A DNA stretch of 62,443 nt from a virus, in IMG/VR virus record IMGVR_UViG_3300042890_000585, positions 1 to 62,443 of that record. One strand, 5' to 3'. A program made the position numbers and the translations under genes. Below are positions 21,821 to 57,304 of this stretch, one piece after another (positions within the stretch are counted from its first letter, which is position 1; the number at the start of each line of letters is the position of its first letter). Under the pieces are notes generated by a model. It did not search any database and was not told the DNA's origin. It saw nothing but the letters and a program-made list of their open reading frames with translations.

Positions 21821-22315
21821 ATGGGTGGAAAATCAATAATTCCGGGTCAAAACATAATTGATCCGCTTGGAGCAATGTTTGTTAGGTCTGTTACTGGGTC
21901 AATTAAAGGAGATCCTAAAAAAAACAAACCTAAGATCAAGATGCCCAGTGAGGCTGATCGAGCTAAGACTGAATTGTATAAAATGATGCAAGATAGACAG
22001 ATGAGAATTTCCAGAGAATTGGAAAACCCATCAGCTTTTTTAAATCAAAATAATGTTCAACAACCAGTTGCTCTACCTGAACAACCAGTGGCTCAACCTG
22101 TTCCTCAACCAGTAAGTCAAGTTGATCAAAAAGCAACTAATGCAATTCTTAACCCAACACCCACAGTAACTCCAGCTACAGTGTCATCTGTTGCTGCTCC
22201 ATCAGTGTTTTCTCCAGTTGCACCTCTTGCAAATCAGGCTACTGGAATGGGTCAACAAAAAACCAATCAGTTTTCCATGCCATCCGCAAGTGGATTAAAG
22301 TTTGGTGGAACATAA
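21821..22315 (+). CDS. MGG-family virion protein with PSASGLxFGG tail
   Basis: 164 aa starting MGGKSIIPG. A Lys-rich stretch follows, then a Pro/Gln/Val-rich flexible region. The C-terminus NQFSMPSASGLKFGG is nearly the same as that of the next gene (NQFATPSASGLTFGG). Shared start, shared end and different middle suggest a small paralogous set whose ends carry out docking or processing. Putative ejection or internal head proteins (inference). Confidence 0.5.
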   Translation: MGGKSIIPGQNIIDPLGAMFVRSVTGSIKGDPKKNKPKIKMPSEADRAKTELYKMMQDRQMRISRELENPSAFLNQNNVQQPVALPEQPVAQPVPQPVSQVDQKATNAILNPTPTVTPATVSSVAAPSVFSPVAPLANQATGMGQQKTNQFSMPSASGLKFGGT

Positions 22316-22388: not shown

Positions 22389-22916
22389 ATGGGAGGAGGA
22401 AGACAAGCACCAGCACCAGCACCACTACAGCAAGGCAATAACAGTGATCTTTTAATGATGCAAATGCAAATGCAACAAGATCAGGCTGAAATTGGACGGA
22501 GACAAGCTGAAGCGGCTCAACAAGCAGCGTTGCTAGATGCACAAAAGCAACAGAATGCTACAATGGCCCGTGAAGGAATGCAAAAAGCCCAGCAAAGTTT
22601 AAGTGGAATTAATGCTGTTAAATCGGCTGAAGAAGCCGCATCCAAACAACGTAATTTGACTGCACAACAGAATGCTGGCACTTCAGTCATTGGATCTGCT
22701 TACGATGTGAATGCCGCTCGTCAGGGTGCGATGTCTAACCTCGGTGCTGCTTCAGGTGTCCTCCCATCCGCCTCTGGCAACATTACTAGTCCAGCTATGG
22801 TCAACCCTGCACTGACAACCGCTGGTGCTACAAACCAAGGTGTTGGTGGCACTAATCAGCGTGTCAATCAATTTGCAACTCCTTCCGCATCTGGACTAAC
22901 ATTTGGCGGGGCTTAA
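22389..22916 (+). CDS. MGG-family virion protein with PSASGLxFGG tail, 175 aa
   Basis: Starts MGGGRQAPAPAP, then a Gln/Met/Ala-rich probable helix (about residues 20-70; MQMQQDQAEIGRRQAEAAQQ) and a Gly/Ala/Ser-rich region. It ends NQFATPSASGLTFGG, matching the previous protein. Composition suits a helical internal virion protein ejected with DNA. No enzyme motif. Confidence 0.5.
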   Translation: MGGGRQAPAPAPLQQGNNSDLLMMQMQMQQDQAEIGRRQAEAAQQAALLDAQKQQNATMAREGMQKAQQSLSGINAVKSAEEAASKQRNLTAQQNAGTSVIGSAYDVNAARQGAMSNLGAASGVLPSASGNITSPAMVNPALTTAGATNQGVGGTNQRVNQFATPSASGLTFGGA

Positions 22917-52054: not shown

Positions 52055-54466
52055 ATGGCAGATACAACCAAACCAATTCCAGCAGAAATTACAAACATCT
52101 ACGCATCGAAAGCTGCGCGGATTATGAAAAACTCTGACAAGCAGAGGATTTCTGAATTGGAAATCGTTGATGGAAATGACACTGGTGACGTTGTAAATCC
52201 TGACACATTGCAGGTTAAACGGACTTTTAAAGACTGCCAGCAAGCGCATTCTGCATATCGACGCTTAAAACAACAGAATGTTGAGCGCAATCGCAAAAAC
52301 CAATTGATTCAAAAGAAGCTAAATAATGAACCTCCGTATAGTGCAAAAAAATTGGAAAGCATGGGTCAGAATTGGCGCAGTAATCGCCCAACTGGGTTTT
52401 TGTCTACGATGGTTAGCCGTTTACAACCACCATTTAAACAAGTAATCGAGCAATCACCAACACTTACCTATTCCAAGTTTCCAATGGAGGGTGTTAGCGA
52501 GGAGCAAAAGACAAAAGTGTTCCGTGAAGAGATCACCAAATGCATCAGAGGATGGAAAGGTCACGATGATCTAGTTGCACAGGTTACGCATGAGAATACC
52601 ACATTTGGTTTTTGTGGAGTATGTTGGGATGACGTTCGTGATTGGAAACCTGAGTTCCTTCGTCAAGATTATACTTTCTTCAGCATCGAGACTCCACAAG
52701 AAGCCGATTCAACCCCGATTTGGGGAAGGAAGCGTCGATACCAGATTGCGGAATTGCTTCCAGTGCTGGAACAACCGAGACTTTCTGTGCTTGCAGGTTG
52801 GAATATCAACAATCTGATTAAGGCAATCAATAACGCAACACCAGCGGGACGAACACTTGATTCCGACGATGACGCTCGACGTTACGAAGACTGGATGCGC
52901 GAAGGATCCTATGGAGCAAGCTACGAGAATGACGCGAAATATGTTGAACTTGGTGAGTTGTTGATTCGTGAACCCACTGGTAAAATTTCGCGTTATCTTT
53001 TCGATGACAAAAGCGGAGACGAAATCTGCACACAACTTGATCGGTACAACAGAATGTCGGACACAATTGCGCTATTCTCTGTTGAGATTGGTAGTGGTGC
53101 ATTGATGTCCAGCCGTGGTGCAGGACGCGATCTATACAACACGCATATTGCTATCGACAAAGCGAGAAATCTCATTGTCGATAACTCATATTTGCGCGGG
53201 ATGCTATTACTTAAGAAAGGCCCAACCGCTAAAACAGGCATTCCTCCGCTTCAAGTAATGCATCCCGTAGCATATGTGGCAGAAGGATATGACGTAGTTC
53301 AGTCCGCAATCCCTGCTGACGTTGAAGATTTCATTAAATTGGATCAATTCATGTCTGGATTAGCTGAGATTCAGATGGGAACATTCCTTCCATCATCCGT
53401 TATGAACATCACGGGTGGAGATAAGACCGCATCCGAGGTAAACCGCATTGCTGCCGTTGAAAATCAGATCCGCGAAGGCATTTTAATGCGATGGGTTAAA
53501 CAATATTCCAAGGCAGTCGAACGTATGCAACGTGGAATCTGTCATCCTGAGCATATTAAAGCTGCATCTGAGCTAAAAACACAGATTGATTTCGCTCGTC
53601 TTCAGAATCCTAACGCAATGTGGGCAAGAAAAGAGGTTGTAGAGGCATTTGAACAGGCACAATCTGAGATTCCATCGTTCCTAGTGCCATTTGAGATCCC
53701 TAGACACCTCGATGAAGAGGCAGTTTCGTGCGTTTTAGCCATGTTGGAGCGTAATTTACCTCCTAGCGACATTTTGCTGATGGCATTCTCTCCAGCAGAG
53801 GAACTTCTTCCACAAACCGAGGGTCAGGACGCTGCAATTCTTGATCTTCTGATCCAACGCTACACTGGAAACCCAAATATCAACCAAGATGAGCTAATGA
53901 AGCTTGATTGGAGTCGAAAAGTGGGTGAATCTATCGCTAACCAAGTCATCCTTCCGAAAGATCAGGTTGAGGCAGTGGCAATTGAGGCTACACGCGCACA
54001 GATTATCGAGCTTCAGAGCATTATCTCAGGTGAGGACATTCCAGTCTCTCCACGGGACAATGATATTGTTCATATCCAGACAATCATGGAGAAGCTATTC
54101 CCGCTCATTGCATCTGCTCCAGCAGGGTCTATGCCTCCAGAGATGCTTAAACCCCTACAATCGGCAGTACAGCACTTTATTGGTCACGTTCAGAACGCTG
54201 AAGCGAAGGGTGCAGATAAGAAGCAGATTGCCGAATACAAAAAGGCAGTTTCTGAAGCTATTACTCATCTTACAGCAGGACAAGCACCAATTTCAGAAGG
54301 TGATTTATTTCCAGCAGCAGCAGGTGGTGGTGGTGGAGGAGGTGGACGTAGACCATCGACTGCACAGGCCACCGCAATGGGAGAAGCAGTTGGAACACAA
54401 AATCCCTCACAAAATAACGCAGTCAACCAAGTTGCTGCACCACCTAAACCAGTAACAGCAGGATAA
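52055..54466 (+). CDS. Portal protein (P22-size)
   Basis: 803 aa. Clip/stem/wing-like composition: long helical N-terminal region, SRLQPPFKQVIEQSPTLTY, WGRKRRYQIAELLPVLEQP, ELLIREPTGKISRYLF, then SDTIALFSVEIGSGALMS and RIAAVENQIREGILMRW, and a helical crown ending in a flexible Gly-rich tail (eight Gly at about 760). Location directly after TerL and before scaffold and coat is the standard portal slot; length is closer to P22 gp1 (725 aa) than to T7 gp8 (535 aa). Motif evidence is weak, context strong. Confidence 0.75.
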   Translation: MADTTKPIPAEITNIYASKAARIMKNSDKQRISELEIVDGNDTGDVVNPDTLQVKRTFKDCQQAHSAYRRLKQQNVERNRKNQLIQKKLNNEPPYSAKKLESMGQNWRSNRPTGFLSTMVSRLQPPFKQVIEQSPTLTYSKFPMEGVSEEQKTKVFREEITKCIRGWKGHDDLVAQVTHENTTFGFCGVCWDDVRDWKPEFLRQDYTFFSIETPQEADSTPIWGRKRRYQIAELLPVLEQPRLSVLAGWNINNLIKAINNATPAGRTLDSDDDARRYEDWMREGSYGASYENDAKYVELGELLIREPTGKISRYLFDDKSGDEICTQLDRYNRMSDTIALFSVEIGSGALMSSRGAGRDLYNTHIAIDKARNLIVDNSYLRGMLLLKKGPTAKTGIPPLQVMHPVAYVAEGYDVVQSAIPADVEDFIKLDQFMSGLAEIQMGTFLPSSVMNITGGDKTASEVNRIAAVENQIREGILMRWVKQYSKAVERMQRGICHPEHIKAASELKTQIDFARLQNPNAMWARKEVVEAFEQAQSEIPSFLVPFEIPRHLDEEAVSCVLAMLERNLPPSDILLMAFSPAEELLPQTEGQDAAILDLLIQRYTGNPNINQDELMKLDWSRKVGESIANQVILPKDQVEAVAIEATRAQIIELQSIISGEDIPVSPRDNDIVHIQTIMEKLFPLIASAPAGSMPPEMLKPLQSAVQHFIGHVQNAEAKGADKKQIAEYKKAVSEAITHLTAGQAPISEGDLFPAAAGGGGGGGGRRPSTAQATAMGEAVGTQNPSQNNAVNQVAAPPKPVTAG

Positions 54467-54473
54467 TAATATT

Positions 54474-54809
54474 ATGCCAGACCGAGCCAAAATGATTAGC
54501 CAACTTGCTTCCAAAGCAAAAATGGATCCATCGTCCGCAGTAAAAGAAAAAGACGTTAAACTTATGAAAAAAGTTGAACCTCTTCCAACTCCTAAAGACA
54601 AAGAAGCGGAAGTTGAAGACTTGCTTTCCGAATCCGAAATGGAAATGGAAAAGAAAGCAGAATATGCATCAAAAGAAAAGGCAAATTATGATCGCATTAA
54701 AAAACAAGGCATGAGCGACCAAGGCATTGTAAATTTGGATCAACTTGCTGCCGCTGGCAAAAAGGCTTACCGCAAGGTTAAATCCAAAGTTAAGTCGATG
54801 ATGGAATAA
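54474..54809 (+). CDS. Small Lys/Glu-rich head-cluster protein, 111 aa
   Basis: Helical and highly charged (KEKDVKLMKKVEPLPTPKDKE then ESEMEMEKKAEYASKEK), ending in a basic helix (KKAYRKVKSKVKSMME). Sits between portal and scaffold. May be a head-assembly or DNA-binding core protein. Unknown. Confidence 0.55.
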   Translation: MPDRAKMISQLASKAKMDPSSAVKEKDVKLMKKVEPLPTPKDKEAEVEDLLSESEMEMEKKAEYASKEKANYDRIKKQGMSDQGIVNLDQLAAAGKKAYRKVKSKVKSMME

Positions 54810-54828
54810 AATATATTAATAAATAAAT

Positions 54829-55068
54829 ATGAAATGGGAAGAATCTGACGCATCACGTCTTCGTGACTACGACAAAAAAACAGGAAGTCGATTGCGTTTA
54901 TATTTACGTAGTCGAATTCCTTTCATAACGGAATGTTCCGTCGAAGGAGTTGCAATGCAAGCCATGTTGAAGCAAGGTTTTGAGATGGCATTGCGAGAAA
55001 TTGAAGATTGCGTAAACTCTTCAAATGATAACGCTGATCCCAGCGCAGGAAACTTCACGTCTATGTGA
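54829..55068 (+). CDS. Small protein, 79 aa
   Basis: LRLYLRSRIPFITECSVEGVAMQ then helical FEMALREIEDC. AATAAATA leader. Position among head genes. Not recognised. Confidence 0.5.
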   Translation: MKWEESDASRLRDYDKKTGSRLRLYLRSRIPFITECSVEGVAMQAMLKQGFEMALREIEDCVNSSNDNADPSAGNFTSM

Positions 55069-55102
55069 CGGAAAAAGTACCTAGTATTTACGTCAAAACT
55101 AT

Positions 55103-55354
55103 ATGGCAGAAATCAAACCAAGGTTCAGCAAAACAATCACCAACAAAGCAACTGGTCGAACGAGGACAGTTGAATACGGGCAAGCTGGAAAAGCCAAGGA
55201 TGGAAAGGATCGTATTCGACCCGGCACATCGAAAGGTGACGCATATTGCGCCAGAAGCGCAAACATTAAAGGTGATTGGAAAGATGATTCCAATAGCCCA
55301 AACCAGTTAAGCAGAAAAAAATGGCGTTGCAAAGGTGAAAAGTCTATGAGATAA
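55103..55354 (+). CDS. Small basic protein, target of the adjacent homing gene
   Basis: 83 aa. Phrases VEYGQAGKAKDGKDRIRPGT, KGDAYCARSA and NSPNQLSRKKWRCKGEKSM belong to a small basic family found in phages (from memory). Its C-terminal 13 residues (RKKWRCKGEKSMR) recur almost exactly at the C-terminus of the next protein (RKKWKCRGEKSMK), indicating insertion of a homing gene at its 3' end. Confidence 0.65.
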   Translation: MAEIKPRFSKTITNKATGRTRTVEYGQAGKAKDGKDRIRPGTSKGDAYCARSANIKGDWKDDSNSPNQLSRKKWRCKGEKSMR

Positions 55355-55361
55355 TAATTTC

Positions 55362-56024
55362 ATGGTTGAATTACAGAAATCTTATATTGTAGAAGGGCCA
55401 ATAAAAGAAGGCAAAAGAACATTCTATATGTGCAAATGCCCATCATGTGGAGATATTAGAAAAGTAAGAAATGACTCTATACACAGAATTAAAAGTTGTC
55501 ACCCATGCCATCACAAAACCACTAGGCCACCAAAACCTAATGGTGATTTTGAATGGTGCAATAAATGTAAGCAATGGAAAACATTTGGTGATTTTTGCTT
55601 TAGGAGTGATGGAAAAGTAAGATCATGCAAAGAATGCGAAAATAATTACAGATTGCAAAATTTACAAAGAATTAATGAATATGCAAAAAAATACAGAAAA
55701 AACAATATTCAGAAGTCTTTGTTTTACTCCGCTAAATTTAGAGCTAAAGAAAACAATCTTAATTTTGACATTGAATTAGGGGATATCATTATTCCAGATA
55801 AATGTTCAGTTCTTGGAATTGAAATCTCAACATCAAAAGAAAAAAACAATAGTCCGTCTTTAGATAAAATCATACCATCACTTGGCTACACTAAAGGAAA
55901 TGTAAGGGTAATTTCTTGGAGGGCAAATTGGATTAAAAATAATATGACATCAGAGGAAGTGGAAAAATTGTACCATGACTCACGCAAAAAATGGAAGTGC
56001 CGTGGAGAGAAGTCAATGAAGTAA
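55362..56024 (+). mobile_element. HNH-like free-standing homing endonuclease carrying a copy of the neighbour's C-terminus
   Basis: 220-aa gene. Zinc-finger pairs CPSC...CHPC and CNKCKQW...CKEC in the N-terminal half, then KCSVLGIEI and SPSLDKIIPSLGYTKGNVRVISWRANWIK (split after Y), which match the family of phage HNH-like endonucleases. The last 13 residues repeat the end of the preceding protein, so the insert reconstitutes the interrupted gene's tail. DNA is noticeably A/T-rich. This explains a spare copy at 55977-56024 of a sequence that ends the 55103 gene at 55308-55354. Confidence 0.85.
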
Positions 56025-56047
56025 ATTAACAACTAATTAATAAATCT

Positions 56048-57304
56048 ATGGAAAACGAAAACGAAAAAGCAGAATCCAGTGTTACTGGATACGGAAACCC
56101 ATCATTGGATGCAGATCCGATTGATGAATCAACTGAATCGCAAATTGATGCATTGCTTGACGATGCATTGAGTGGAGTTGAGCCAGTGTTTGCAGAAGAA
56201 CCTGAATCAAGCGAAACGGAGGAAATTGAACCAATCGAGGAAACGCGAGAGGTTGCTGAATCTACGGAACATTCTGATACTCCAGAAGCACCTTTAACTC
56301 CAGAGGTCGAACTGGATCCAGAAATTGCGTCAATCGAGCAACCCCGCAATCTCTCTGAGGTTAATCGCTCCAACTGGAGAAAGTTGCAAGAGACAGCATC
56401 CACATACAAGAAGCAAGCCGAGGAAACAGAGCAACTGCGGCAACGTGTTGTGGAGATGGAATCACGGCAGCAGGAATTCAAAGCACCTGATGACTACGAC
56501 GAGTTGAAAAAATTCCGTGCAATCTTCGACATCAAGAATGATCCAGAATTCCAATCGAAATACAATCAGCCAATTCAGTCTGCTAAAGAGAACATCTACA
56601 ATATCCTCCGTAAAAACGGAGCGAGTGAAGATGTGATTGAATCTATTGAAAAAGCAGGTGGGCCTGATGCAGTTGATCAAGGTTGGTGGAAAAACAACGC
56701 AATTGACAAGTTGCCACTTACTGATTCGGAACGTCTTAAACGCAACCTTGTTGATGTTGTTGACCTAAAAGAGAAGCAAGAACAAGAAATTGAAAATGCC
56801 GCTCAAAATGCGGAGCAGATTCTTGAGCAAAGGGAGCAAGAGAAGGGTAAGTGGTATCACCAAGAGGTGGAGCAGATCGATAGACACATCGATGACCTAA
56901 CAAAAGAGTTGCCGTGGGCTAGGTATGCAGAAGCACCGAAAGATGCAACTCCAGAAAAGCTACAACAGGTTCAAAGGCACAACGCGCAGGTGCAATCCCT
57001 TGCTGAGAAGTTTAACTCTGCCCTGTGGCCCACCAACGCGCAAGAACGGGCTAATGTTGCAGCGGCAGCAGTGTTCTCTCACGTCCTAACGGAGCAACTG
57101 CGGGTTGAGCAAGAGGGAAAATCAAAATACATGGCAGAGCTAAAAGCACTGCGTGAGGAGAACAATAATCTCAAGGGTGCAGGTAAGATGCCAAAACAGA
57201 CCATCACTGGTCAGCATAGTATCAAATCCAGCCTCAATGACAGATTGAAGATGAATTCTATGGATGCCATTGATCTTGGGCTTGATGAAGCACTAGGTGG
57301 TTAA
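56048..57304 (+). CDS. Scaffolding protein
   Basis: 418 aa, acidic N-terminal region (residues 1-100, many Glu/Asp), then coiled coil (YKKQAEETEQLRQRVVEMES, KQEQEIENAAQNAEQILEQRE) and a C-terminal stretch with MAELKALREENNNLKG. Such a profile, located between portal and major capsid gene, is typical of podoviral scaffolding proteins that template prohead assembly. No protease was recognised nearby, so it is probably recycled, as in P22. Assignment by profile. Confidence 0.7.
   Translation: MENENEKAESSVTGYGNPSLDADPIDESTESQIDALLDDALSGVEPVFAEEPESSETEEIEPIEETREVAESTEHSDTPEAPLTPEVELDPEIASIEQPRNLSEVNRSNWRKLQETASTYKKQAEETEQLRQRVVEMESRQQEFKAPDDYDELKKFRAIFDIKNDPEFQSKYNQPIQSAKENIYNILRKNGASEDVIESIEKAGGPDAVDQGWWKNNAIDKLPLTDSERLKRNLVDVVDLKEKQEQEIENAAQNAEQILEQREQEKGKWYHQEVEQIDRHIDDLTKELPWARYAEAPKDATPEKLQQVQRHNAQVQSLAEKFNSALWPTNAQERANVAAAAVFSHVLTEQLRVEQEGKSKYMAELKALREENNNLKGAGKMPKQTITGQHSIKSSLNDRLKMNSMDAIDLGLDEALGG

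Follow-up and report, generated by a model that had tools for sequence, protein, structure and literature searches.

A free-standing phage homing endonuclease gene that probably carries a replacement tail for the gene it invades

Introduction

Free-standing homing genes are thought to avoid harm either through an intergenic position or by splitting a gene into halves that still work. Replacement of a gene's tail is already known from two other kinds of element, the mobile open reading frames (ORFs) of fungal mitochondria and the prophage e14. Mobile ORFs that bring foreign C-termini have been described for atp6 of Allomyces and for atp6, atp9, cox2 and nad3 of Glomus (PMC3630166). In these cases an endonuclease ORF near the 3' end of the gene brings an in-frame foreign C-terminus, and the native C-terminus is displaced downstream, where it still matches close relatives (PMC3630166). 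The phage locus described here works like the fungal ORFs in that a foreign in-frame tail and a displaced native tail flank an endonuclease gene. However, the fungal enzymes are LAGLIDADG or GIY-YIG proteins of mitochondria, whereas the present one is EndoVII/HNH-like and resides in phages. Unlike that of the fungal ORFs, its displaced tail forms an in-frame fusion with the enzyme, and the likeness is one of arrangement, with no sequence homology shown. Prophage e14 likewise provides icd with a new 3' end and pushes the native one aside (PMC6379469). It does so by reversible, integrase-based prophage integration, whereas the vehicle here appears to be a nuclease gene copied by repair, without an integrase.

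Free-standing homing endonuclease genes (HEGs) of T4-like phages (Mob, Seg) resemble the present gene in lying outside introns and in the co-conversion of flanks (PMC2988022), and hairpins hiding translation start sites, which the T4-like genes use, may be a further likeness. The T4 genes lie between genes and have cut sites at a distance, and the mobE/mobA insertions split host genes; a replacement tail, which is carried here, is described for none of them in PMC2988022. F-CphI, of the DHHRN EndoVII-type enzymes, is likewise a free-standing phage gene with a C-terminal EndoVII-like nuclease half, but its self-protection comes from a neighbouring intron ('collaborative homing') and not from a swapped tail (PMC6083498). 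A limited search of the open-access literature found no earlier report of a phage homing gene carrying a replacement tail. Within that search, tail replacement is new in phage homing genes.

Two neighbouring genes with a common tail

The window is the whole stretch of viral DNA analysed (62,443 nucleotides), and the features of the locus lie on the plus strand. A small gene at 55103..55354 encodes a conserved phage protein of 83 aa that has at least 590 relatives on viral contigs and whose C-terminus is RKKWRCKGEKSMR. The fold model of this protein is poor (pLDDT 64), and family and structure searches gave no function. An endonuclease-like gene (55362-56024, 220 aa) starts 7 bp past the small gene, and its product has the C-terminus RKKWKCRGEKSMK. 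The original prediction, that the protein at 55362 and the small protein before it share a C-terminal tail, agrees exactly with both reading frames and their ends.

The C-terminal 13 residues of adjacent ORFs in the window and related loci, 2110 distinct pairs in all, were compared with BLOSUM62. The small gene and the endonuclease gene rank first (score 66), and the other high-scoring pairs are further copies of this element, another endonuclease that swaps tails, or low-complexity or paralogous neighbours. The tail match is therefore far beyond chance. In a random-tail control the window's score was reached by 77 of 300000 pairs; these are presumed to be homologous tails drawn twice, and the adjacent-pair ranking is preferred for that reason. 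The DNA sequences of the two tails disagree at 13 of 39 sense bases, which speaks against a local duplicate.

Two other tail matches were set aside. One is in L039 (3013-3717/3721-4560), in whose proteins no nuclease domain was found. The other lies in the window itself (21821-22315 and 22389-22916), between adjacent structural-looking genes, structural paralogues by eye, that share only a C-terminal NQF..PSASGL.FGG motif. The motif is probably a common assembly tail and not a homing footprint.

Ten more distant nuclease relatives from named phages have no tail match to the upstream gene. Nucleases of this kind therefore do not carry the tail as a rule. The tail was absent from other HNH/EndoVII-like proteins; had it been common in unrelated HNH proteins, this would have counted against the original reading. 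Distant relatives in several named phages adjoin DNA polymerase, psbD or ribonucleotide reductase genes. Those of phage cr116_1 (L304), Roseobacter phage CRP-7 (L302) and cyanophage S-SKS1 (L296) are without tail duplication; they either separate gene segments that carry a DNA polymerase I or ribonucleotide reductase annotation, or follow psbD immediately.

Empty-site relatives and the origin of the tails

A search with the small protein retrieved 80 loci from among its viral-contig relatives. Twelve of the 80 (L003-L008, L010-L015) belong to the same lineage as the window and are without the endonuclease. In most of the twelve, the portal gene (96-99% aa identity), its neighbour and the downstream genes stand in the window's order. 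The native genes upstream in the window (52055..55068), which encode an 803-aa portal-position protein and proteins of 111 and 79 aa, anchor the synteny. On the other side, the native gene at 56048..57304 (418 aa) is 85-96% identical in amino acids to its counterparts; in the empty-site relatives it adjoins the small gene after the same short intergenic leader that occupies 56025..56047 in the window.

The small genes of the empty relatives end in RKKWKCRGEKSMK, the version that is now fused to the endonuclease, and window positions 55980-56051 are identical to the empty locus L008 across 72 nt. Joining 55309 to 55980 by script restores an intact, empty-type gene of 83 aa. Two things had been expected: that the small gene of empty-site relatives would have the downstream tail, and that insertion at the 3' end of the small gene had left an intact host gene and a fused HEG. 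These comparisons bore out both. Occupied and empty alleles alternate at one exact site in otherwise collinear genomes, as in other free-standing HEGs.

The mismatches around the join are unevenly spread. To its right, the window differs from 11 empty loci at 0-9 of 81 nt, and in the 21 nt to its left it differs at 8-12 positions in 10 of the 11. The gene core, taken as the 186 nt before this tract, has 3-20 mismatches. This pattern indicates that the native tail is the downstream one and that the insert brought a foreign tail together with a short co-conversion tract. The small gene is here a hybrid of native core and foreign tail. The co-conversion tract (55289..55312) comprises the final native-gene bases, swapped along with the tail, and tail comparison across lineages places the carried tail RKKWRCKGEKSMR and its stop codon at 55313..55354. 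The endonuclease body occupies 55362..55979, and the displaced native tail SRKKWKCRGEKSMK with the native stop codon, identical to L008, is fused to it in frame at 55980..56024.

The mobile unit across lineages

Relatives of the endonuclease (57-100% aa identity) occur on 17 contigs, and in 17 of 17 the gene is placed immediately 3' of a small-gene homologue. No relatives came from a scan of genome contigs with the endonuclease. Five phages of other lineages with the same endonuclease (L082-L086) match the window at 88-93% in the carried tail and at 84-86% in the endonuclease body. Their host-gene cores are only 57-65% identical, their downstream DNA is unrelated, and the portal of this lineage has no meaningful similarity to that of the window. 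Because the foreign tail is shared with these phages and the host core and downstream DNA are not, the mobile unit consists of a recoded tail, a spacer and the endonuclease.

A local tandem duplication, in which the 3' end of the small gene was doubled at insertion and the copies diverged later, would explain why the two tails encode nearly the same peptide. This reading is very improbable, since identity to the native tails of empty relatives is 97-100% for the downstream tail and only 69-71% for the upstream one. Nor would later divergence yield an upstream tail that resembles those of HEG-bearing phages with dissimilar host genes. The tail had originally been described as duplicated; two like tails are indeed present, but local duplication does not hold, and the host's present tail arrived with the endonuclease gene. 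That the arrangement is an assembly chimera is a concern with any metagenome contigs, which these are. It is hardly credible here, because the same structure is present in two further same-lineage contigs (IMGVR 3300043775_000334 and 3300042562_000161) and, between different flanks, in other lineages.

Occupied and empty partners with the same join were also found in other lineages (L086/L155, L086/L159, L085/L128, L106/L197 and L110/L047). In L086/L155 and L086/L159 the flanks are 91-94% identical and the displaced tail matches the native one at 90-95%, against 60-62% for the carried tail. For L084 and L083 the nearest empty loci (L200, L228) already have a replacement-type tail, and these pairs do not cleanly display the swap. 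The tail arrangement had been proposed to mark the homing site. It gives an exact footprint of the target, and the insertion point was the same in every lineage checked.

The endonuclease tree groups the window with L082-L086. In the host-core tree the window groups with L110/L112, carriers of a distant endonuclease; the comparison rests on a short alignment and has modest support. Horizontal spread with co-conversion of flanking host sequence is a property of HEGs, and it is seen here. Occupied hosts tend to carry W-R-C rather than W-K-C (non-K in 15 of 16 against 49 of 168, Fisher p 5e-7), but given the relatedness of the sequences this is no more than suggestive.

The nuclease and its expression

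The endonuclease has a zinc-ribbon-like N-terminal half and an EndoVII/HNH-like C-terminal half. Its profile matches are phrog_3322 (E 5e-33) and phrog_1035, 'endonuclease VII' (E 3e-24). Pfam and NCBIfam gave no nuclease or HNH match for the protein, and sequence and fold searches of the PDB gave no match to a solved structure. The body evolves with a dN/dS of 0.065-0.13, indicating purifying selection on a nuclease-family protein, as expected of a HEG.

Enzymes of the DHHRN family have an Asp-His pair, in which the residue equivalent to H41 of EndoVII is invariant (PMC6083498). The present protein departs from the DH(D)H motif of F-CphI and its relatives. D168 is followed by Lys or Arg in 19 of 19 aligned sequences, in place of the canonical catalytic His, and the activity of the endonuclease is for that reason not assured. 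N180 and N189 are invariant in the alignment, and either may correspond to the metal-binding N62. The substituted His favours a nuclease that is domesticated or dead and is carried passively by ordinary homologous exchange between phages. Such a non-homing origin is unlikely given the purifying selection on the body, the single site occupied on all 17 contigs across several genome contexts, the short co-conversion tracts around that site, and the incongruence between the HEG and host trees. Homing remains the preferred reading.

The gene is not inside an intron or intein. No Rfam intron was found in 54400-56500, where Rfam matches were below threshold, and splicing is not needed because the insert carries its own host tail and stop codon. 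The insert encodes no site-specific recombinase; its 670 bp fit only the tail and the nuclease ORF. A possible RNA hairpin (55344..55365) pairs the endonuclease start codon with the last bases of the carried tail and has the host stop codon in its loop region. It has a z of -3.2 in the window, is similar in relatives, and is present in most close copies. Covariation consisted of one both-sides change (L104), which was not significant against shuffles (70/500). The modelled hairpin may hide the endonuclease start codon.

A second tail-swapping family at a portal-position gene

The same adjacent-pair screen identified a second HNH protein of 237 aa that has a canonical WHIDH motif and no BLAST similarity to the first endonuclease. 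In L172/L277, L157/L278 and L279 a portal gene is immediately followed by the gene for this protein. L280-L290 contain a subclade at 64-66%, and L129 has a diverged copy (family loci L172:2262-2975, L157:2186-2899, L277-L290 and L129:2168-3004). 'Portal' is a call from position and size, as no family library named these genes. All full-length copies end in a portal tail, and the portal protein itself ends differently. Between L283 and the empty locus L171, displaced and native tail agree at 90 of 90 nt, as do 30 of 30 nt beyond the tail. The displaced tail of L277 matches the native tail of L212 at 85 of 90 positions, against 69 of 90 for the carried tail. On these alignments, of which L283/L171 is the exact pair, a second and unrelated HNH family performs the same tail swap at a portal-position gene.

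An 80-aa ORF after the portal-position gene of L163 (2762-3004) also ends in the native portal tail (AQMGGVTTQGMQQ). It may be a relic, or a further small insertion at that 3' end.

Fate of the displaced tail

The tail fused to the first endonuclease is intact in the window and in L082-L086. Copies in L087, L088, L107 and L109 have diverged tails, L108 has a truncated one, and deletion in L104-L106 has left 'LMK'. A frameshift affects the tail of L110, and that of L112 is eroded. Erosion or deletion in older copies makes the displaced tail on the endonuclease look like a passenger.

The shared tail could instead be a functional module, such as a DNA-binding or localisation signal, that the endonuclease needs and that was selected or arose by convergence. 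The tail is basic, contains Trp and Cys, and is in frame in most copies; L087 and L088 retain a KW.C.G pattern, and L107 and L109 retain KW.C. This explanation is nonetheless quite unlikely. The nuclease body is still intact where the tail is truncated, deleted, frame-shifted or eroded, and AlphaFold2 predicts residues 212-220 to be disordered (pLDDT <50). Where a pair has a clean empty partner, the intact fused tail matches the native tail of its own host, and the second family ends in a portal tail instead.

In L087 (4890-5000) the host gene has its own native-like tail, which is followed by a detached, out-of-frame replacement tail (KKWRCNGYKSMR) before the endonuclease.

Chimeric empty alleles

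Two loci without the endonuclease, L003 and L163, have carried-type sequence up to AAAAAATGG and native sequence thereafter. L003 differs from the window at 1 of the 21 tract positions, against 8-12 in other empty loci. In L200 and L228, also without the endonuclease, the switch from carried to native sequence occurs a few codons later. Recombination between the two tails, excising the endonuclease, is suggested as the explanation of these chimeric alleles. Conversion of one side only, or native variation, may instead account for them.

Mechanism and implications

Taken as a whole, the locus is very probably a free-standing HEG whose target is a small phage gene's conserved 3' end and which moves as a single tail-carrying unit. 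The unit would comprise a recoded copy of the host's last codons with a stop codon, a short spacer, and an endonuclease reading frame without a stop of its own. The endonuclease would cut or nick the empty allele near the ..LSR/KKWKC.. codons (codons 70-74), and repair from the donor would copy the unit into the cut allele. Comparison with empty alleles shows a host gene that is still whole, though its tail is foreign. Recoding on the left and splitting on the right should make the occupied allele uncuttable. The original tail has been displaced 670 bp downstream, where it gives the endonuclease its last 14 residues and stop codon, and the range of copies shows it then decaying, as a passenger would. 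Recombination between the two tails could remove the HEG and leave a chimeric but working gene, as the chimeric empty alleles suggest.

A broader proposal is that tail-swap homing is a general and reversible phage strategy with at least two origins, represented by a pair of unrelated nuclease families, each at a different structural-region gene. The carried tail would serve as both repair patch and immunity allele, and the tail pair as a built-in excision route leaving cut-resistant chimeras (L003, L163, L200, L228). We advance this proposal tentatively, as somewhat short of an even chance.

An insertion into coding sequence that is repaired with a spare part, without intron or intein, accounts for the presence of an intron-less element at a conserved coding site. 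A simple signature that can be sought genome-wide is a pair of neighbouring genes alike in nothing but their last codons, and C-terminal variation in phage genes can be hitch-hiking DNA. If tail-swap homing is indeed general and reversible, tail variation in phage genes would record past homing.
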